Below, piece by piece: positions 23,359 to 62,300 of a DNA stretch of 64,000 bases. A program made the position numbers and the translations under genes. The DNA is from Neolewinella litorea (lineage in GTDB: Bacteria; Bacteroidota; Bacteroidia; Chitinophagales; Saprospiraceae): NCBI RefSeq assembly GCF_004803465.1, contig NZ_SRSF01000007.1:62001-126000 (forward strand), in the 5' to 3' direction. A model generated the notes under the pieces. It saw only the letters and a program-made list of their open reading frames with translations, did no database searches and had not been told where the DNA came from. Within the stretch, counting starts at the first letter, position 1, and every line of letters starts with the position of its first letter.

Positions 23359-23433
23359 ACCGGGGGCGAAGATAAGACTTAACACTACTCCACCCCCAGT
23401 AGAGTGGGCCGCTCTACCTATGCGCAAAAACTA

Positions 23434-25281
23434 ATGAACGCACATCTTTACCCCTGCCTGCTCGTATTGCTCCTTACTGCCTCGCCCGGCACCCGCGGCC
23501 GCGCCCAAGACACGATAGCCCGCCAAAATTTCGAGCCCGTCGCGCAGCCAGTCCTTACCTACACTACCGAAACCGCCCCCTACGGCTCGGGCGGGATACC
23601 CACCTGGAATGTGGTCGACCGCATCCGGGGCATTGAGGATGCCGCCGATGGAACCCGGTTCTGGGCCGCGCGCGACGTGGAAAACACCATCTCGGGTGCC
23701 CCCCGCAGCGCCATCACCTTTGACGCCGGCAATATCTGCTCCCTGACCAGTGCCCGCTTCGTGTTCGCGTACCGCGTGGTGGGCTACGACGGCGGCGACG
23801 ATTTCGGTTACGTGCTGCATCTCGACGGCTTCCCCGAACCGGAAGTGATCCTGATCGACGGGCGCAACGGGGGCGGCATTTCCACCGACGGTTGGGTATA
23901 CGATACCGTGGCCATTCCCGGCACCGCCCAAACCGCGGCCCTAAGCCTGTTCTTCGACCAGAACGGCGACGACGTGGCCGCCATCGACGATGTCCAGCTC
24001 CTGGCGACCGGAAACCAGGGGAGTTGCCGGCCCATCTGTGGCATCCGGCTGGGGGAGCCCGTCGTAAGCTGTGAGAGTTTCACCCCGGACGCCGACGAGC
24101 TTCAACTGCGCATCCCCTACTCCGGGGGCGAATCGGGCGTAAGCGTGACCAGCAGCACTGGAATCATCGGCGGAGACGACCCGGCCTCCCAGGCCGACGG
24201 CACCATCACCCTCGGCCGACTTCCCGAAGGGGAGGTACACGTATTGCGGGTGAAGGGCGGTGACTGCGACCTGACCCTCCAGCTGGCGTACCCGGCAGAC
24301 TGGTGCACGCCCAGCGACCTGGTCATCAACGAAGTGCTGGCCGACCCCGGCGAAGACATCAACGGCGACGGGGTCATCAACGGAGCGGACGAATTCGTGG
24401 AGATCTATAACCGGGGAACAGTAGACCACGACCTTGGTGGGCACACCGTGCACGAGGGGTCCAACTCCGGTGCCCGCTTCACCTTTCCCGCGGGAACCGT
24501 TTTGGCACCCAACGCCACCTTCCTCGTGCTGGCGGGGGGCGGAAGCTTGAATCCCGACTGCGCCCACGGAATCGCCAGCGGTTTCCTTGGTCTGAATAAC
24601 GACAGCCCGGAGACCGTGACCCTCCGCGACCCGGACGGCAAGGTGATCGCCCAGTTTTCCGTCGAAGACGCACCCGCGGGCGAATCGCTCGTGCTGTCGC
24701 CCGACGGAAACCTCGACGGTGGATACCAATTGCACACCGCCGTGGCCGGCACGCCGTCCTCGGCCTGCGTGGAGACGGCCCGCCTGCCGGTGGTCCTGCA
24801 ATCCTTTACCGCCACTTCCCTGCACGATGCGGTACGGCTGGACTGGCGGACAACCCAGGAAACCGATAATGAGGTATTCGTGGTGGAGCGGAGCAAATCC
24901 GGTCGCAGCTTCAGGGAAATCGGGCGCGTTCCCGCCGGTAACGGACGGTACTTTTTCGTGGATTACGCGCCCTTCCCCGGGCAGAATATCTACCGGCTGC
25001 GACAGTTGGATACCGACGGACAGGAAACGGTCTTCGGGCCCCGGCTGGTCCGCCTCGACAGCGGAACCGTGCGTGTGTACCCCAATCCGACCAGCGGAAA
25101 GCTGTTCCTGAGCGGTGAGATTGAGCCCGACGCGGTTGCTTCTGTACACCGGCCCGACGGCCGGCGGGTACTTTCCTTCCGGGGGGGTGCGGTGAATGTG
25201 CGCGCGCTACCCGCGGGTGTGTATTACCTGCGCATCCGGCGGGCTTCGTCTTCCGAATCGTTCCGCTTTATAAAGGAATAG
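23434..25281 (+). CDS. Secreted lamin-tail-domain protein with type IX sorting signal
   Basis: 615 residues. A signal peptide (LYPCLLVLLLTASPG) precedes a beta-sandwich region up to about residue 290. A lamin-tail (LTD) domain follows, beginning SDLVINEVLADPGEDINGDG with an EF-like acidic loop and reaching DEFVEIYNRG. A further domain has DWRTTQETDNEVFVVERS, and the last ~75 residues form a type A C-terminal sorting domain (RVYPNPTSGKLFLSG ... LPAGVYYLRI). It should be exported by Sec, then across the outer membrane by T9SS. The end overlaps the convergent serine hydrolase by 58 bases. Confidence 0.88.
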   Translation: MNAHLYPCLLVLLLTASPGTRGRAQDTIARQNFEPVAQPVLTYTTETAPYGSGGIPTWNVVDRIRGIEDAADGTRFWAARDVENTISGAPRSAITFDAGNICSLTSARFVFAYRVVGYDGGDDFGYVLHLDGFPEPEVILIDGRNGGGISTDGWVYDTVAIPGTAQTAALSLFFDQNGDDVAAIDDVQLLATGNQGSCRPICGIRLGEPVVSCESFTPDADELQLRIPYSGGESGVSVTSSTGIIGGDDPASQADGTITLGRLPEGEVHVLRVKGGDCDLTLQLAYPADWCTPSDLVINEVLADPGEDINGDGVINGADEFVEIYNRGTVDHDLGGHTVHEGSNSGARFTFPAGTVLAPNATFLVLAGGGSLNPDCAHGIASGFLGLNNDSPETVTLRDPDGKVIAQFSVEDAPAGESLVLSPDGNLDGGYQLHTAVAGTPSSACVETARLPVVLQSFTATSLHDAVRLDWRTTQETDNEVFVVERSKSGRSFREIGRVPAGNGRYFFVDYAPFPGQNIYRLRQLDTDGQETVFGPRLVRLDSGTVRVYPNPTSGKLFLSGEIEPDAVASVHRPDGRRVLSFRGGAVNVRALPAGVYYLRIRRASSSESFRFIKE

Positions 25282-56890: not shown

Positions 56891-56946
56891 AGCCGCGCGA
56901 GCAGAAAAAATCTGCGCCAAAATCCGCGGAATCCGCGGTTCAAAAC
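56891..56946 (+). repeat. Dispersed 'CTGCGCCAAAAT' repeat, partial copy
   Basis: Starts AGCCGCGCGAGC and includes AATCTGCGCCAAAATCCGCG and a CCGCGGTTCAAAA end, matching the units of the tandem array at 58665-59330. Confidence 0.7.
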
Positions 56947-56954
56947 ACTTCTTC

Positions 56955-56980
56955 GTCCTTTTGTCTAGCTACAAAAGGAC
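56955..56980. other. Perfect 10-bp hairpin
   Basis: GTCCTTTTGT and ACAAAAGGAC flank CTAGCT. It is followed by a second short stem (CCAGGGG ... CCCCTGG, about 56992-57010). There is no gene directly upstream on either strand. Confidence 0.5.
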
Positions 56981-57357
56981 CAAACCACGAGGCCAGGGGT
57001 GGGGGCCCCTGGGCGAAGTTGTGATATCGCCTCTATCGTGCAGCGAAACCCAAAAGGGCGGAATGCTGCAAACTCGCCGCCAAATCCGTTCTCCGGCGCC
57101 AATCCGTCGATAGCTTCCATCCGTTTTTTTCAATCTGAATCTCTAGCCCGCTCAAACAGTGCAGCCTTCTTTTTCTCCCTTTTGCGCTCCGCCGCCCGGG
57201 CGATCTCAAGGGCGGTTTGCACCACTTTTCGCCGCCCGCAAGTTTTCGGTGCTCCGTGGTAAATGACGTAAGAAGAATACACTTTGCGTCTGCACCGCCG
57301 AAGGTGGAATAGTCTGCGCGAATCCGTGAGCCGCGCGAGCGAATAAATCTGCGCCAA
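56965..57357 (-). pseudogene. Degenerate reading frame interrupted by one TGA
   Basis: The minus-strand frame 57357-57130 (75 codons; RKVVQTALEIARAAERKREK) ends at TGA. It then continues in the same frame for about 54 codons (MEAIDGLAPENGFGGEF ... GLVVWSFCS) to a TAG at 56965. The second half includes the hairpin DNA described above, so part of it is probably not protein-coding. No family is recognised; a decayed gene or repeat-derived sequence is the best reading. Confidence 0.3.
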
Positions 57358-57465
57358 AATCTGCGCAATCCGCGGTTCAACACATCTGAAGCGCTAAAAA
57401 CTTACCGCAGATTTCGCTGATTGGGGCGCTGATTAAGGCGCAGATGAATTTCCCCTAAATTTTAA
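57329..57465 (+). repeat. Dispersed repeat, one full-length unit
   Basis: Runs from AGCCGCGCGAGCGAATAAAT through TCTGCGCCAAAATCTGCGCA and CTTACCGCAGATTTCGCTGA to TTTCCCCTAAATT, the same order of blocks as the tandem units at 58665-59330. Confidence 0.75.
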
Positions 57466-57480
57466 AAGAGAAATTCAAAG

Positions 57481-57597
57481 GCGGCGGGTGTCGCTGGCAG
57501 TACTGATGGCTTCGTTGAGGTCCATAATCTCGCGGGCCAAAGCGTCGTATTCATCCCAGTCTTTCCTGGGCAAGGTAGCTTGATCCGGGCACTTCAG
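57481..57597 (-). pseudogene. Decayed fragment of the BNR/sortilin-like gene
   Basis: These 117 bases align without gaps to 59743-59859 inside the intact gene, about 75% identical by hand count. On the minus strand they still encode ILKCPDQATLPRKDWDEYDA and REIMDLNEAISTASDTRR, matching VKYLDQATLPTEDWDEYDA and RQIMDLSKAISAAGDIRR. Nothing else of the gene is present on either side, and dispersed repeats lie next to it. It is the remnant of a second copy or of a related neighbour lost by rearrangement. Confidence 0.8.
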
Positions 57598-57656
57598 GAT
57601 AATCTACTTACTTGTAGATTGGACTCTGAAGTATATGTAGATTAGAGAATATGCCC

Positions 57657-57848
57657 TTACAATTGTTTCTGCTTTGTTTCTTTGGTTTGCTTATAATAAA
57701 TGTAAGCGAATGATACCGCCAGCAAGGAAACATAGGAAAACCAATCCTCAAAGTGGTACGTGCCCCGGTAAATGTCAATTGAATTGAGCAGAAGCATCAA
57801 GGTGACGATCGTGATGAGTGCGTACAAGTACGAAGTGTAAGGTTTCAT
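57657..57848 (-). CDS. Small two-helix membrane protein, possible immunity protein
   Basis: 63 residues starting MKPYTSYLYALITIVTLML. Two hydrophobic segments at about 7-23 and 36-52 are separated by a polar loop (SIDIYRGTYHFEDW), with a Lys-rich C-terminal tail (KQTKETKQKQL). The frame opens 16 codons earlier, but those codons run through the palindrome at 57861-57890, so the ATG at 57848 is chosen. It is last in a minus-strand row behind two double-glycine-leader peptide genes. Small two-helix proteins in this position are often bacteriocin immunity proteins; that role is inferred only from position and shape. The DNA is clearly AT-richer than the chromosome around it. Confidence 0.55.
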   Translation of the reverse strand: MKPYTSYLYALITIVTLMLLLNSIDIYRGTYHFEDWFSYVSLLAVSFAYIYYKQTKETKQKQL

Positions 57849-57860
57849 TATCAATAGTTT

Positions 57861-57890
57861 AGCTCCGAAGATACTAGTATCTTCGGAGCT
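57861..57890. promoter_or_regulatory. Perfect 30-bp palindrome
   Basis: AGCTCCGAAGATACT followed directly by its exact complement. It lies between the second leader-peptide gene and the membrane-protein gene. There is no T-tract, so an operator, attenuating hairpin or recombination site is as likely as a terminator. Confidence 0.7.
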
Positions 57891-57898
57891 GGACAAGG

Positions 57899-58072
57899 TT
57901 ATGCTTGGTGTCGTGGTTCAAGGCCATTATATCCATCGTGAAATCCTTCTCTGATGTCGGGAAGGTTATCTAGCCCATTAACAATTATTTTGTAGATGGA
58001 AATCCCTGCGAGAAAATTCCAGACCCAACCACCGGAGGTGGATTTGCAATCTTGAATAGAAAGTGGTGTCAT
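57899..58072 (-). CDS. Double-glycine-leader peptide, second of pair
   Basis: 57 codons, not in standard long-ORF lists. Leader MTPLSIQDCKSTSGG: Leu at -12, Asp at -8, Gly-Gly at -2/-1. The predicted mature 42-residue peptide begins WVWNFLAGISIYKIIVNG and ends GFHDGYNGLEPRHQA, with a GxxxG motif at residues 43-47 and a hydrophobic first half. It resembles class II bacteriocin or peptide-pheromone precursors processed by a peptidase-containing ABC transporter. The GG site is at the same position (14-15) as in the neighbouring peptide. It starts 35 bases after the first peptide's stop. Confidence 0.65.
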   Translation of the reverse strand: MTPLSIQDCKSTSGGWVWNFLAGISIYKIIVNGLDNLPDIREGFHDGYNGLEPRHQA

Positions 58073-58107
58073 AATTATCGAATTTAAAAAGTGAAATAAT
58101 TAAAGAT

Positions 58108-58275
58108 TTATCCATAGGGCCTGGCGGGGCTCCATTCGTATGCGGCGGGTTGAGACAAGCGTTCCAGGTCCTCCTCAATCTCCTTGCATACCCAGCCTGC
58201 CGCGTAGGCTATCCAGTACCAAGGACTTTCTCCGCCGGAAATCATGGATACATCCGATTCTGTTAAGTGCTTCAT
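58108..58275 (-). CDS. Double-glycine-leader peptide, first of pair
   Basis: 55 codons. Leader MKHLTESDVSMISGG fits the double-glycine consensus at every key position: Leu -12, Asp -8, Val -7, Ile -4, Gly -2, Gly -1. The mature 40-residue peptide starts ESPWYWIAYAAGWVCKEIEE (one Cys, an AxxxG stretch, three Trp) and ends YEWSPARPYG. Such leaders direct cleavage and export by C39-peptidase ABC transporters. Bacteriocin, signalling peptide or modified peptide are all possible; no maturase or transporter gene is seen nearby. AATCAA precedes the ATG with no clear ribosome site. Confidence 0.7.
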   Translation of the reverse strand: MKHLTESDVSMISGGESPWYWIAYAAGWVCKEIEEDLERLSQPAAYEWSPARPYG

Positions 58276-58664
58276 TTGATTATACGTTACTATTAAAAAA
58301 TGGTTATTGTTTGTCCTGACATAAATCGGTATTTGTGTTCACTTGATTGTGGACAACGCAATACCTTTCCGCTCTTCAGGTGATACGGTGGCTGTAGGCT
58401 GTATATGATGAATATTTAAAATTCAACCTCCGTAATCCAGGTGTCTGAGTGGTTACATAATGCAAGGATCGGGTTCCCCACTCTACTCCCGGTGGAGTGA
58501 TGTTAAATTTTGTGCTGAGTTGGCAAAGAACACCCCTTATATTGATTTATGGCTGGCAATTACTGGTTGCTCGATTGATGAAGGTTGGATGGATACTGCC
58601 ACACCATGACCTGAGGCTGCGTGACACAGAAATTTGTGCTTTTCGGTATGCGAGTGAAAGACTG
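58276..58664. other. AT-rich gap upstream of the peptide genes
   Basis: No supported gene. A 49-codon plus-strand frame at 58460-58609 (starts MQGSGSPLYSRWSD) has no recognisable features. The promoter of the peptide pair should lie here, but no exact TAnnTTTG was found on the minus strand. Confidence 0.5.
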
Positions 58665-59330
58665 AAGCCGCCTGAGCGGAGAAATCTGCGCAAAAATCCG
58701 CGCAAGAATCTGTGTTATCCGCGGTCAAAAAGCGCCAAAGGCGCCAAAAGCTCACCGCAGATTGCACTGATTGGGGCGCAGATTGAGGCGCAGATTAATC
58801 TACCCTAATTTCCAAAACTAGCCAGCCGCACGAACGAAAAAATCTGCGCCAAAATCTGCGCAAGAATCTGAGTAATCCGCGGTTCAAAAGCGCCAAAGGC
58901 ACCAAAAACTCACCGCAGATTGCACTGATTAAGGCGCAGATTAAGGCGCAGATGAATCTACCCTAACTTCCAAAATCAGCCAGCCGCTTGAGCGAAAAAA
59001 TCTGCACCATAATTCGCGTAAGAATCCGCGTAATCCGCGGTTCAAAAAGCGCCAAAGACGCCAAAAGCTCATTGCAGATGCACTGATTAGGGCGCAGATT
59101 AATCTCCCCTAATTTCCAAAACTAGCCAGCCGCACGAGCGAAAAAATCTGCGCCAAAATCTGAGTAATCCGCGGTTCAAAAGCGCCAAAGGCGCCAAAAA
59201 CTCACCGCAGATTTCACTGATTGGGGCGCAGATTAATCTACCCTGACTACCAAAATAAGCCAGCCGCGCGAGCGATGAAATCCGTGTCGATCCGTGAAAC
59301 CAAATCCGTGGAATCAGTGGTAAAAAAAGC
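58665..59330 (+). repeat. Tandem array of ~130-160-bp dispersed repeats
   Basis: Five units starting at about 58665, 58821, 58979, 59125 and 59259. Each begins GCCAGCCGC-CGAGCG, then AAAAAATCTGCGCCAAAATC, AATCCGCGGTTCAAAA, GCGCCAAAGGCGCC, CTCACCGCAGATT-CACTGATT, GGCGCAGATTAATCTACCCT and CCAAAA. Lengths differ because the GGCGCAGATT block is present once or twice. The last unit is truncated and runs to the stop of the BNR gene. No coding frame is preserved. Confidence 0.88.
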
Positions 59331-59349: not shown

Positions 59350-62300
59350 TTACTCGCCCGACCAGGTAGGCCAGCGCCCAGGAGTGTAAGGCGCGCCCTG
59401 CATTTCCAGTTGCTGCTCCAGGGCACGTACGTCGGCGTCAATTGCCTTCAGATCCGATAGTAGCGGACCAAATTCCGCAGCCGCCACCCGGTAACTCTCC
59501 CGGTAGGTTTCCGTGGGGTCGCTGGTCACGTTCCACATGCCGTACTCCAGGGCACCCACGCGGCCGGCCACCGAGGGGGCCGTTTCCATTTGCAGGTTGC
59601 TGCGGACACGGTCGCCATACAGGGCTTCGGTGAGGTCGGCCAGTCGCTCGCGCAGGTCGTGGAGCGTGGTCAGTGCTGCCTCCGGACTGGTGGTAGTTTC
59701 CAGGGCGGCTTTTTCCAGCGCATCGAGGCGCTGATTAAGGTTGCGGCGGATGTCGCCGGCGGCACTGATGGCCTTACTGAGGTCCATAATTTGTCGTACG
59801 AAGGCATCGTATTCGTCCCAGTCTTCCGTAGGCAGCGTGGCCTGGTCGAGGTACTTCACGCGGAAGGGCTGCGGCTCAGCCAATTGCCGGAAGGTGCCGT
59901 CGAAGAACTGACTCATCGTCACGGTATAGTTGCCCGGAGGCACGAGCGCACCCATTGAGGGACTGCCGAAGAGCACATCGGGGGCCGGAGAGTAGCGGTT
60001 ATTGACGGGGTCCGGACTGGGGTAGCGCAAATCCCAATGGAAGCGGTGTAGGCCCTTGCTCGCGTCGCGCTTCAATTGCCGCACTACCTCCCCGGCTTCG
60101 TTGCGGATGGTGAAGAGCAGGTAGGGGTCTTGCTGCCGCTCCTCCATGCGCAGGGAGTCTACCGGCGGATAATAGACGGAGGCCTTGCGCGACATAATTT
60201 CCCGCTCCCGCTCCTGCCGCTGCTCCTTCAGGGTTTTTGGTTTTTCCTTGAGGTAGTAGGTGAAGCCCGCGCCATAGGCCGGGTTGTCCGATCGGAAGTA
60301 GCTGCTGCCCAGGTGGCCCTTGTCGCGCAGGCCCAGGGGGGCGCGCTCCACGTAGAGCCAGGGGTCGCGGGTGGTCATCAGCGCCGCATCTTGCTCGAAG
60401 GTGGCCGGCTGCAGTTTGCGCAGGGCGGTGTAGTCGTCGAGAACGTAGAAGCCGCGACCGAACGTAGCAACTACCACGTCGTTCTCCTGCCGTTGGAGTT
60501 CAATGTCGCGTACCGCCACCGTAGGCAGGCCGCCGCCGAGTTCGATCCACTGCTGGCCGCCGTCGTTGGAGAAGAAGGCACCGAACTCCGTACCCGCGAA
60601 GAGCAGGTTGGGGTCCTCGTGGTCCTCGGCGATGGTGTACACGCTGCCGCGTTCGGGAAGGGTGGCGGACAGGGAGGTCCATGTGGCTCCGCCGTCGCTG
60701 GTCTTGAGCAGGTAGGGTTTGAAGTCGCCGTAGCGGTGATCATTGAAGGCCACGTAGGCCACGTTGCGATCGTGGAGGCCGGCGATTACCTGATTGACGT
60801 AGCTCATTTCCGGTACGCCAGGCAGGTTGTCGAACTTCTGCCAGGTCTGTCCGCCGTCGGTGGTTTTGTGGAGTAGTCCGTCGTCGGTGCCCACCCACAG
60901 TAGATTCTCGTCCAGTGCGCTCTCGGCGATGGTGGTGGTCTGTCCGAAGATGGAGGTGGAGGTATTCTTCGCTACGGCATCCACGCTCCACACCTGGTCC
61001 ATGACGGGCAGCGTATTGCGGTCGATGCTGCGGCTAAGGTCCGGACTGATCACCCGCCAGCTGTTGCCGCGGTCGTCGGTGCGGAACACCTTGTTGGCAC
61101 CGTAGTACAGTCGGGTGGGCTGGTGACTCGAGATGGTCAGGGGCGCGTCCCAGTTCCAGCGCAGGGGCTTGTCGTCGGCGCCCTCGGTGGGCTGAATGAA
61201 GAGGTATTCGCCGCTGCGGCGGTCGAAGCGGCGCAGGCTGCCGTACTGGGCCTGGGCGTAGATGACGTTCGGGTCGGTGGGGTCCACTTGGGTTTCAAAA
61301 CCGTCGCCGGTGCTGGTGATGTACCAGTCGCTGTTCACGATGCCGTTCACGCTGGTGTTTTTGTTGGGGCCGCCCAGACTGAGGTTGTCCTGCGTGCCGC
61401 CGTGAACATGGTAGAAGGGACCCGACTGGTCGGTGGCCACCTTATAGAACTGGGTCACCGGCAGATTCGGCTTGAAGTGCCAGGTCGCGGCGAAGTCCCA
61501 CGTTTCGTAGATGCCGCCGTCGCAGCCCACCAGCAGGTGGTCGGTATCGGCGGGGTCGATCCAGATGGCGTGGTTGTCGATGTGCTTGTTGAGTTCCCCG
61601 AGGTTGCGGACGGTTTTGCCGCCGTCGTCGCTGACCTGGTAATAAGTGTCGGTGATGAAGATGCGGTCCACGTTCACAGGGTCGCAGGTAATTTCCTGGT
61701 AGTAGTTGCCACTGGAGAAGTAGTCGTTCTGCTTGGTCCAGCTGACACCGGCGTTGTCCGAGCGGTAGATGCCGCCCTTGCCGTCGGGGGCTTCGACTAC
61801 GGCGTACACTACGTCGGGGTTGACGGGTGATACATCAATGCCAATGCGTCCGATGTCGCCGCCGGGCAGTCCGCCCTTCAGTTGCGTCCAGGTAGCGCCA
61901 CCGTCGGTGGTTTTGTAGAGGCCCGATTCCGGTCCGCCGCCCAGATAGGTATACACTTTGCGCTGCCGCTGGTGAAATGCCGCGTACAATACATCCGGGT
62001 TTCGTGGATCCATGCGCAGGTCATTGCAGCCCGTATAGTCGCTGACGTGCTTGACGCGCTCCCACGTATCGCCGCCGTTGGTGGATTTATAGACCCCGCG
62101 CTCGCCGCCATTACTCCAGACGGGGCCGTAAGCGGCTACCCATACGACGTCGGAATCGGTAGGGTCCACGATGACATTGGCGATGTGCTGGCTTTTCTTC
62201 AGCCCCTTGTGCTGCCAAGTCTTGCCGCCGTCCTCGGATTTGTAGACGCCGTCGCCGTAGCCCACCGAGCGCTGGTTGTGGTTCTCGCCGGTGCCTACCC

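Follow-up and report, generated by a model that had tools for sequence, protein, structure and literature searches.

In a 64-kb stretch of the genome of Neolewinella litorea (label G000, 4.40 Mb), referred to here as the window, two genes for peptides with a double-glycine (GG) leader of 55 and 57 aa are followed on the minus strand by a gene for a 63-aa membrane protein (58275-57657). This block is probably a cassette for a two-peptide class II bacteriocin and its immunity protein that relies on a distant exporter acting in trans; there are no expression, cleavage, killing or immunity data. What is observed are the conserved genes, the gene for the exporter, an operator, a hairpin and a tendency of the membrane-protein type to track the peptide type. 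The two-peptide bacteriocin inferred in a first-pass annotation of the same DNA gains support from the C39 transporters and the homologous short frames that we find, with the term bacteriocin remaining an inference.

Peptide precursors, hairpin and membrane-protein gene

The first gene, pep1 (58108..58275, minus strand), encodes a 55-aa precursor composed of a 15-aa GG leader and a 40-aa mature peptide (ESPWYWIAYAAGW...YEWSPARPYG). The second, pep2 (57899..58072, minus strand), encodes a 57-aa precursor with a 15-aa GG leader and a 42-aa mature peptide. The first-pass annotation had described both open reading frames with Gly-Gly at residues 14-15, Leu at 4 and Asp at 8, and had matched the pep1 leader to the consensus at -12, -8, -7, -4, -2 and -1; frames and residues are present as described. 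The leader of pep2 is weak and departs from the consensus with Cys at -7 and Thr at -4, the GG being retained. Its orthologue in N. xylanilytica (MKPINHSQISCIRGG) has Ile at both -7 and -4, and hydrophobic residues at -4, -7 and -12 are present in pep1 and in both N. xylanilytica orthologues, with window pep2 lacking those at -4 and -7. pep2 failed a strict leader scan, which was applied across the 64-kb window with ATG starts and at least four of five features required. The two matches were pep1 and a 99-aa ORF, which by eye encodes a YbaB-like protein and is probably a false positive.

The mature peptides carry net charges of -4 (pep1) and -2 (pep2), their N. xylanilytica counterparts 0 and 0; class II bacteriocins are typically cationic. 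Mature pep1 contains one cysteine and mature pep2 none. AlphaFold places helices at residues 18-40 of pep1 and at 15-35 and 41-48 of pep2, at low confidence (pLDDT 67.7 and 59.8, from two-row alignments).

The conservation search covered 60 genomes, G000 and 59 relatives. It returned a strong pep1 homologue in one genome of the same genus, N. xylanilytica DSM 29526 (G007; E 9.5e-20). The pep2 homologue in this species scores E 7.9e-39 against a profile that itself includes it. N. xylanilytica keeps pep1, pep2 and the membrane gene in the same order, with 32/54, 28/57 and 19/54 aligned residues identical, respectively. Counts of differences at the three codon positions are 18/10/33 (pep1), 26/20/34 (pep2) and 28/22/38 (membrane gene). 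The corresponding dN values are 0.32, 0.51 and 0.71; dS could not be computed, which we read as saturation, and no dN/dS is given. The cores ESxWYWIAYAAGW, YEWSPARPY and, in pep2, LDNLPDIREGFxDGYNG are kept between the two species, and an EGFxDG-like C-terminal motif as in pep2 is also seen in sister peptides. Strong relatives of pep1 are found only in G000 and N. xylanilytica, besides three weak matches. For pep2, 398 family genomes yielded strong matches in the same two genomes only, a weaker one in G009, which is a type-E peptide (see below), and 12 weak ones; a scan of GTDB contigs yielded N. xylanilytica only. Among the ORFs at the loci of weak matches L009, L010, L012 and L014 (pep1) and L019, L020, L021 and L024 (pep2), and for these loci only, no GG-leader homologue was recognised. 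The first-pass annotation had also looked to homologous short frames elsewhere as a check of its proposal, and frames with the same leader do occur in the same genome and in relatives.

A perfect 13-bp hairpin (57861..57890, minus strand) lies between pep2 and the membrane gene. Its MFE is -21.5, and none of 200 shuffles is as low. The hairpin is near-identical in N. xylanilytica. There is no T-run behind the window copy, and the terminator scan did not flag it as terminator-like; two terminator-like sites were flagged around the cassette, neither at the hairpin. Partial termination at this position is for these reasons a guess. The exact sequence of the hairpin occurs in 2 of 21 genus genomes (G000 and G007), and other cassettes carry other hairpins in the same place. 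On these grounds, a role as a fixed recombination site was rejected.

The gene behind the hairpin (57657..57848, minus strand) encodes 63 aa from the ATG at 57848, and a TTG frame would give 79 aa. For this small membrane protein an immunity role is proposed. The two-helix protein of 63 residues expected earlier is borne out in part: the ORF exists and has two hydrophobic stretches, but the second is weaker and a 19-residue window counts one only.

GC content is 41.5% at 57600-58300 compared to 60.1% for the whole window, in line with the AT-rich block noted before. The repeats and the gene fragment noted at its borders are likewise present. REP-like repeats flank the cassette at 56904-57412 and 58666-59281, those on the right side being 158-nt units with inverted halves; they are perhaps substrates of REP transposases. 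A piece of the neighbouring 1103-aa gene (59743-59858) recurs alongside as a degenerate copy (57481..57596, minus strand; 76%, 116 nt). Acquisition of the block, also suggested earlier, is supported by an empty syntenic site in G016, the nearest relative by these genes. There the flanking genes stand in the same order and encode proteins 90% and 92% identical, at a distance of ~0.96 kb compared to 2.6 kb in the window. The segment 57364..59343, which contains the cassette, has no counterpart in G016 apart from short repeat pieces. Among eight relatives compared, the two flanking genes are side by side in G016 only; G001 has them separated by several kb, and the 11 kb taken for the remaining six does not include the 1103-aa gene. 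Gain in G000 and loss in G016 cannot be distinguished, and gain is favoured because of the low GC of the segment. Since no relatives were found for pep2 in phages, for pep1 in plasmids or for either in viral contigs, the peptides were rejected as phage- or plasmid-borne.

The low-GC segment with its gene fragment and repeats, the weakened pep2 leader and the lack of expression data would also fit chance or decayed ORFs that are not expressed. This explanation is barely tenable, given cores kept in two species despite many silent changes, a conserved hairpin and an intact operator.

Cassettes and exporters across the genus

A profile built from 32 GG peptides (A4) located more loci at G000 C23, G001 C45 (196 kb) and G004 C1 and C30, and matched G000 C12 weakly (E 0.042). 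G000 contains four cassettes: the one in the window, one beside the transporter on C1, one on C12 and one on C23, where the contig ends and only one peptide is seen. We compared 15 cassettes, picked because GG peptides had been found there, and sorted their peptides by eye into six types. Type A comprises the window and N. xylanilytica; type B G012, G017 and G000 C23; type C G001, G016 and G004 C1; type D two cassettes in G004 and G000 C12; type E G009 and G001 C45; and type F the cassettes at the transporter in G000 and G020. Types A, B, C and D each adjoin the transporter in one genome and lie away from it elsewhere. At several loci the number of GG peptides is three to five rather than two.

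All 15 cassettes share the order of GG peptides, strong hairpin and membrane-protein gene. The gap before the membrane gene (43-84 nt) holds a hairpin in 15/15, with MFE from -17.5 to -28.2; no shuffle out of 200 is as low for 14 of them, and two are as low for the remaining one. The 11 gaps between peptide genes have MFE of 0 to -0.9, but they are shorter (9-36 nt vs 43-84). Hairpin sequences differ between cassettes.

The membrane genes are of several kinds, as in class IIb immunity. They encode proteins of 55-66 aa in which one or two hydrophobic stretches pass the threshold, proteins of 38 or 48 aa with one stretch, VanZ-like proteins (a sub-threshold match) or CAAX-protease-like proteins. 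PF02517 (Rce1-like) was found in both cassettes tested, which belong to two types, and the other CAAX-like assignments are by similarity. Within a type, 12 pairs of membrane proteins are similar at z 4.7 to 48.7. Across types (93 pairs), the highest values are 8.9 and 4.7, followed by 4.3, and the top two pairs both join members of two types whose membrane proteins are CAAX-protease-like. A weak case is the 38-aa protein of G004, whose same-type values (4.7 and 5.2) do not stand out from the best cross-type pairs. Judged from the sequences, the membrane-protein type tends to follow the peptide type. In type D (L114:3459-3828, L110), the one-TM protein ends in GHEFGHWFYGN and its peptide has GHHFGHWWYGN. 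The proposed immunity protein of this type may mimic its toxin.

The first-pass annotation had also called for a C39 transporter in the genome. Two PF03412 matches exist, and for one of these proteins the nearest family is that of bacteriocin export; both lie on contig C1 of G000 and none on the contig of the window, and no transporter is linked to the cassette within the window. The transporter (Peptidase_C39 and ABC domains) and an HlyD-like adaptor are adjacent to each other at C1:1365-1369 kb. Against TIGR01193 (peptide cleavage/export ABC) the transporter scores 521 bits, 2.9 under the cut-off of 523.85. In N. xylanilytica, a C39-ABC transporter of 725 aa, accompanied by its HlyD-like adaptor, is encoded ~5 kb upstream of pep1. 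The G000 transporter is 84% identical to this one and is found on another contig than the window cassette.

Orthologues of the 725-aa transporter (at least 64% identity) are encoded in 11 of 21 genus genomes. GG-leader ORFs lie near it in 8 of these 11, one to five each, with likely chance matches set aside and including the G000 peptide MNQLCK..., which was found by reading the locus. In the other three (L067, L069 and L068, the last cut by a contig end) no GG peptides were found near the orthologue. G009 has a cassette and operators without an orthologue of the 725-aa transporter. Some transporter loci (L004:13765-13911, L015 near 11106, L061:14705-14854, L064 and L066) have a conserved ORF of 47-63 aa (...IPHLPLDWNEDLSLEEYLER...) after the operator and ahead of the GG peptides; its L004 copy has no Pfam match. 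Outside the 15 cassettes, G002 and G006 encode pairs of hydrophobic GG-leader peptides of 68-74 aa in the vicinity of another C39 ABC transporter (L111, G002:C26; L112, G006:C65), and G006 a single GG ORF. No perfect hairpin of at least 8 bp was found with these two pairs; the L111 peptides match TIGR03949 below its cut-off.

Several transporter loci are headed by a short GG peptide with mature F...C.FP, while the remaining peptides vary. C39 transporters also export pheromones. The peptides could be secreted signals that induce a regulon, with the membrane protein as sensor or modulator; the conserved F...C.FP peptide and the operator common to most cassettes would suit such a function. We give this explanation little credence, without excluding it. 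pep1 and pep2 vary between genomes and are paired, and the types are paired with 1-2 TM, VanZ-like or CAAX-like proteins rather than with histidine kinases, none of which was recognised by eye among the cassette ORFs listed. Should one of the peptides act as a signal, the F...C.FP peptide that comes first beside the transporter would suit this role better than pep1 or pep2.

A shared operator

The upstream regions have a 28-bp operator pattern in common, TTAAC-N2-CACTCCAC-N5-GTRGAGTG, which was searched with up to three mismatches. It matched in 8 of 21 genus genomes, and a reversed control pattern in 0/21. In 377 family genomes outside the genus, 19 were matched by the operator and 29 by the control (hand count). 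Matches outside the genus are consequently taken as chance. In the window, two matches were found compared to none in 100 shuffles. The palindrome alone is less striking, with six matches vs a mean of 1.06, a number reached by one of 100 shuffles.

The operator of the window cassette (58479..58506, minus strand) reads TTAAC-N2-CACTCCAC-N5-GTAGAGTG with 0 mismatches and lies 203 nt 5' of the pep1 start. A -7-like box, GATCCTTG, of the Bacteroidota type xANNYTTG follows 8 nt past it (58463..58470, minus strand); the -7 box consensus of Bacteroidota is TAnnTTTG. A sigma-70 consensus scan around the cassette gave no site on the cassette strand and one on the plus strand, fewer than in shuffles.

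The operator is found upstream of 11/15 cassettes, the window cassette included. A variant form lies upstream of three more, CACTATCA...TGAGAGTG in N. xylanilytica and CACTCTCA at two G001 loci, and at G000 C23 the contig ends too early to show an operator. A looser variant scan of nine loci gave three further, chance-like matches (L069, L107 and L111). Six tandem copies, ~110 nt apart, lie ahead of the GG peptides in G020 (L066:5551-6131), and three copies ~140 nt apart in N. xylanilytica (L015) and in G001 (L062). In a hand-copied subset of 49 rows, G017, G020 and G007 each have their own form of the half-sites at all listed sites; G000, G004 and G012 mostly have the common form, and G016 and G009 are mixed. 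The window cassette carries the form of its host, and the N. xylanilytica orthologue that of its own. From half-sites that follow the host we infer one regulator per species; the regulator itself was not found.

G000 contains nine distinct operator sites: the transporter locus has three, the window and C12 cassettes have one each, and one site each precedes two REP-transposase-like genes, a GxxExxY gene and a lamin-tail T9SS gene. The last (window 23379-23406, plus strand, 1 mismatch) is located 27 nt before the gene 23434-25281, which encodes a 615-aa lamin-tail-domain T9SS secreted protein. By eye, this pairing recurs in G004, G017, G009 and G016 and probably in G012. Three of the other sites are L163, L164 and L165 (G000 C23, C1 and C39). 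Two REP-associated transposase-like genes, which match NF047646 below cut-off, begin 39 and 20 nt after the operator, and a GxxExxY gene (TIGR04256, 141.6 bits) has it right at its start. Because the operator is so close to the starts of these genes, near-leaderless mRNAs are expected. The same gene kinds are found by eye downstream of the operator in other genomes.

An operator before transposase-like and nuclease-family genes could also fit a stress or lysis regulon. The nap island of Neisseria gonorrhoeae is horizontally acquired and has the same parts, several GG peptides, a C39 peptidase and an immunity-like protein, and it encodes a LagC-like protein. According to the available part of the source, its GG peptides do not kill competitors, and the island is reported to drive autolysis instead (PMC11798529). 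The Neolewinella cassette might likewise target the producer's own population in autolysis or programmed lysis. We think this improbable: six diverged types in genome-specific combinations look like warfare between strains, and the Neisseria system is described as a single island.

Relation to known systems and proposed function

Neither pep1 nor pep2 scored above cut-off against Pfam and NCBIfam (best E 0.048). For pep1, two class IIb models give E ~0.05; for pep2 there is no such match. With TIGR03949 (class IIb), five of 32 GG peptides reach E <=0.1, and three of the ten sister peptides given pass the cut-off of 21.5 (26.5, 23.9 and 22.3 bits). Bacteriocin_IIc and Lactococcin are matched by single GG peptides (E 0.005-0.008). 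In 27 mature peptides, 37 GxxxG motifs were counted vs 13.4 expected, distributed over 21/27, with shuffles that ignore relatedness; AxxxG was not enriched in the same set.

Three features of class IIb are present. Distinct short precursors stand side by side, pep1 and pep2 being adjacent in two species; the genome encodes a C39 exporter and an accessory protein, unlinked to the window cassette; and GxxxG is present, with GFxDG kept in pep2. The leader criterion is satisfied by pep1 and only in part by window pep2, and the gene behind the peptides, its types mostly paired with theirs, has the expected position, its protective role being inferred from this arrangement alone. No curated family model is matched by pep1 or pep2. 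Since the window peptides fail such models and activity is unshown, we file the pair provisionally as class IIb-like, not as a proven member.

Gram-positive class IIb systems (lactococcin G, plantaricin EF/JK, cerein 7B/lactobin A, TIGR03949) share with the Neolewinella cassettes adjacent GG-leader peptides, GxxxG enrichment, a C39-ABC transporter with adaptor and a membrane immunity-like gene behind the peptides. In contrast, the Neolewinella host is a Gram-negative member of the Bacteroidota, the exporter is unlinked to the window cassette, the mature window peptides are acidic, their precursors fail the family models and some cassettes encode more than two peptides. Class IIb immunity proteins, as far as the accessible text covers those studied, have one to four TM segments (PMC6957408). 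The blp locus of Streptococcus pneumoniae, in the portion of the source at hand, combines variable GG peptides, CAAX-protease and small membrane immunity genes, a dedicated transporter and shared regulation (PMC4860687). The Neolewinella cassettes differ in being dispersed over contigs with a palindromic operator in common, and no histidine kinase or regulator was identified.

Within the same phylum, Bacteroides sp. 2_1_56FAA has a cluster predicted to make an unmodified bacteriocin, with a PF14406 peptide directly 5' of a CAAX-protease self-immunity gene; a C39 ABC transporter and a pair of HlyD-type genes belong to it as well. In the section of that 2015 source available, one peptide is reported, the transporter is linked and the cluster is a prediction only (PMC4573289). 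PF14406 is matched by neither pep1 nor pep2. Bacteroidetocins are likewise from Bacteroidota and have a 15-16-aa GG leader and a C39 ABC transporter. The text that could be consulted describes proven one-peptide systems in which the peptide has two or more cysteines (A and B have four), neighbouring genes for a multi-TM protein, a transporter and usually a thiol oxidoreductase, and no immunity protein found (PMC6671954). The window, in contrast, has a peptide pair with one or no cysteine and one membrane gene per cassette. The bacteroidetocin features are not met: neither mature peptide has at least two cysteines, no C39 transporter is linked (PF03412 only on C1), and neither a multi-TM protein nor a thiol oxidoreductase was seen by eye. 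A genome survey, known to us from part of its text, predicts class II precursors across Gram-negative phyla including Bacteroidota (PMC12648078). In a literature search mostly at the level of title listings, no two-peptide system with cognate membrane proteins was found for Bacteroidota.

C39 transporters also serve RiPPs. pep1 and pep2 could be precursors of modified peptides with an unlinked maturation enzyme, and there are Cys-rich sequences among the sister peptides; CCRG-2 is matched by one peptide in 32 (E 0.004). This is very unlikely with one cysteine in mature pep1 and none in pep2, and no modification enzyme was recognised by eye near the window or among the listed ORFs of the G000 and G007 transporter loci.

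We prefer the bacteriocin-immunity cassette and propose the following mechanism. A still unidentified regulator would bind the 28-bp operator and give one transcript through pep1 and pep2. The hairpin behind pep2 may pass only part of transcription on to the membrane gene, or protect the peptide mRNA, and the two peptides would be made in excess. The C39-ABC transporter and its HlyD-like adaptor would cut the leaders after Gly-Gly and export peptides of 40 and 42 aa. These two peptides, predicted to be largely helical, could jointly attack the envelope of close relatives, with the 63-aa membrane protein shielding the producer.

Beyond the known kinds are the dispersed cassettes, the one exporter and the operator that varies between species and reaches transposase-like and nuclease-family genes; the literature on operators was not covered. 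In streptococci, competence and fratricide are coupled. By analogy, and as a tentative idea that we consider possible rather than probable, Neolewinella could hold a distributed arsenal, in which exchangeable toxin-immunity cassettes are spread over the chromosome and served by one exporter in trans and by one regulator whose palindromic operator has, in some species, drifted at all of its sites together. The same switch would act on REP-associated transposases, GxxExxY nuclease-family proteins and the secreted lamin-tail protein and would link warfare by peptides with the acquisition of DNA or with rearrangement of the genome. If the reading as a two-peptide bacteriocin system is true, it would be a testable Gram-negative counterpart of the blp locus, offering six peptide sets for synthesis and, with the operator, a lead to the regulator.
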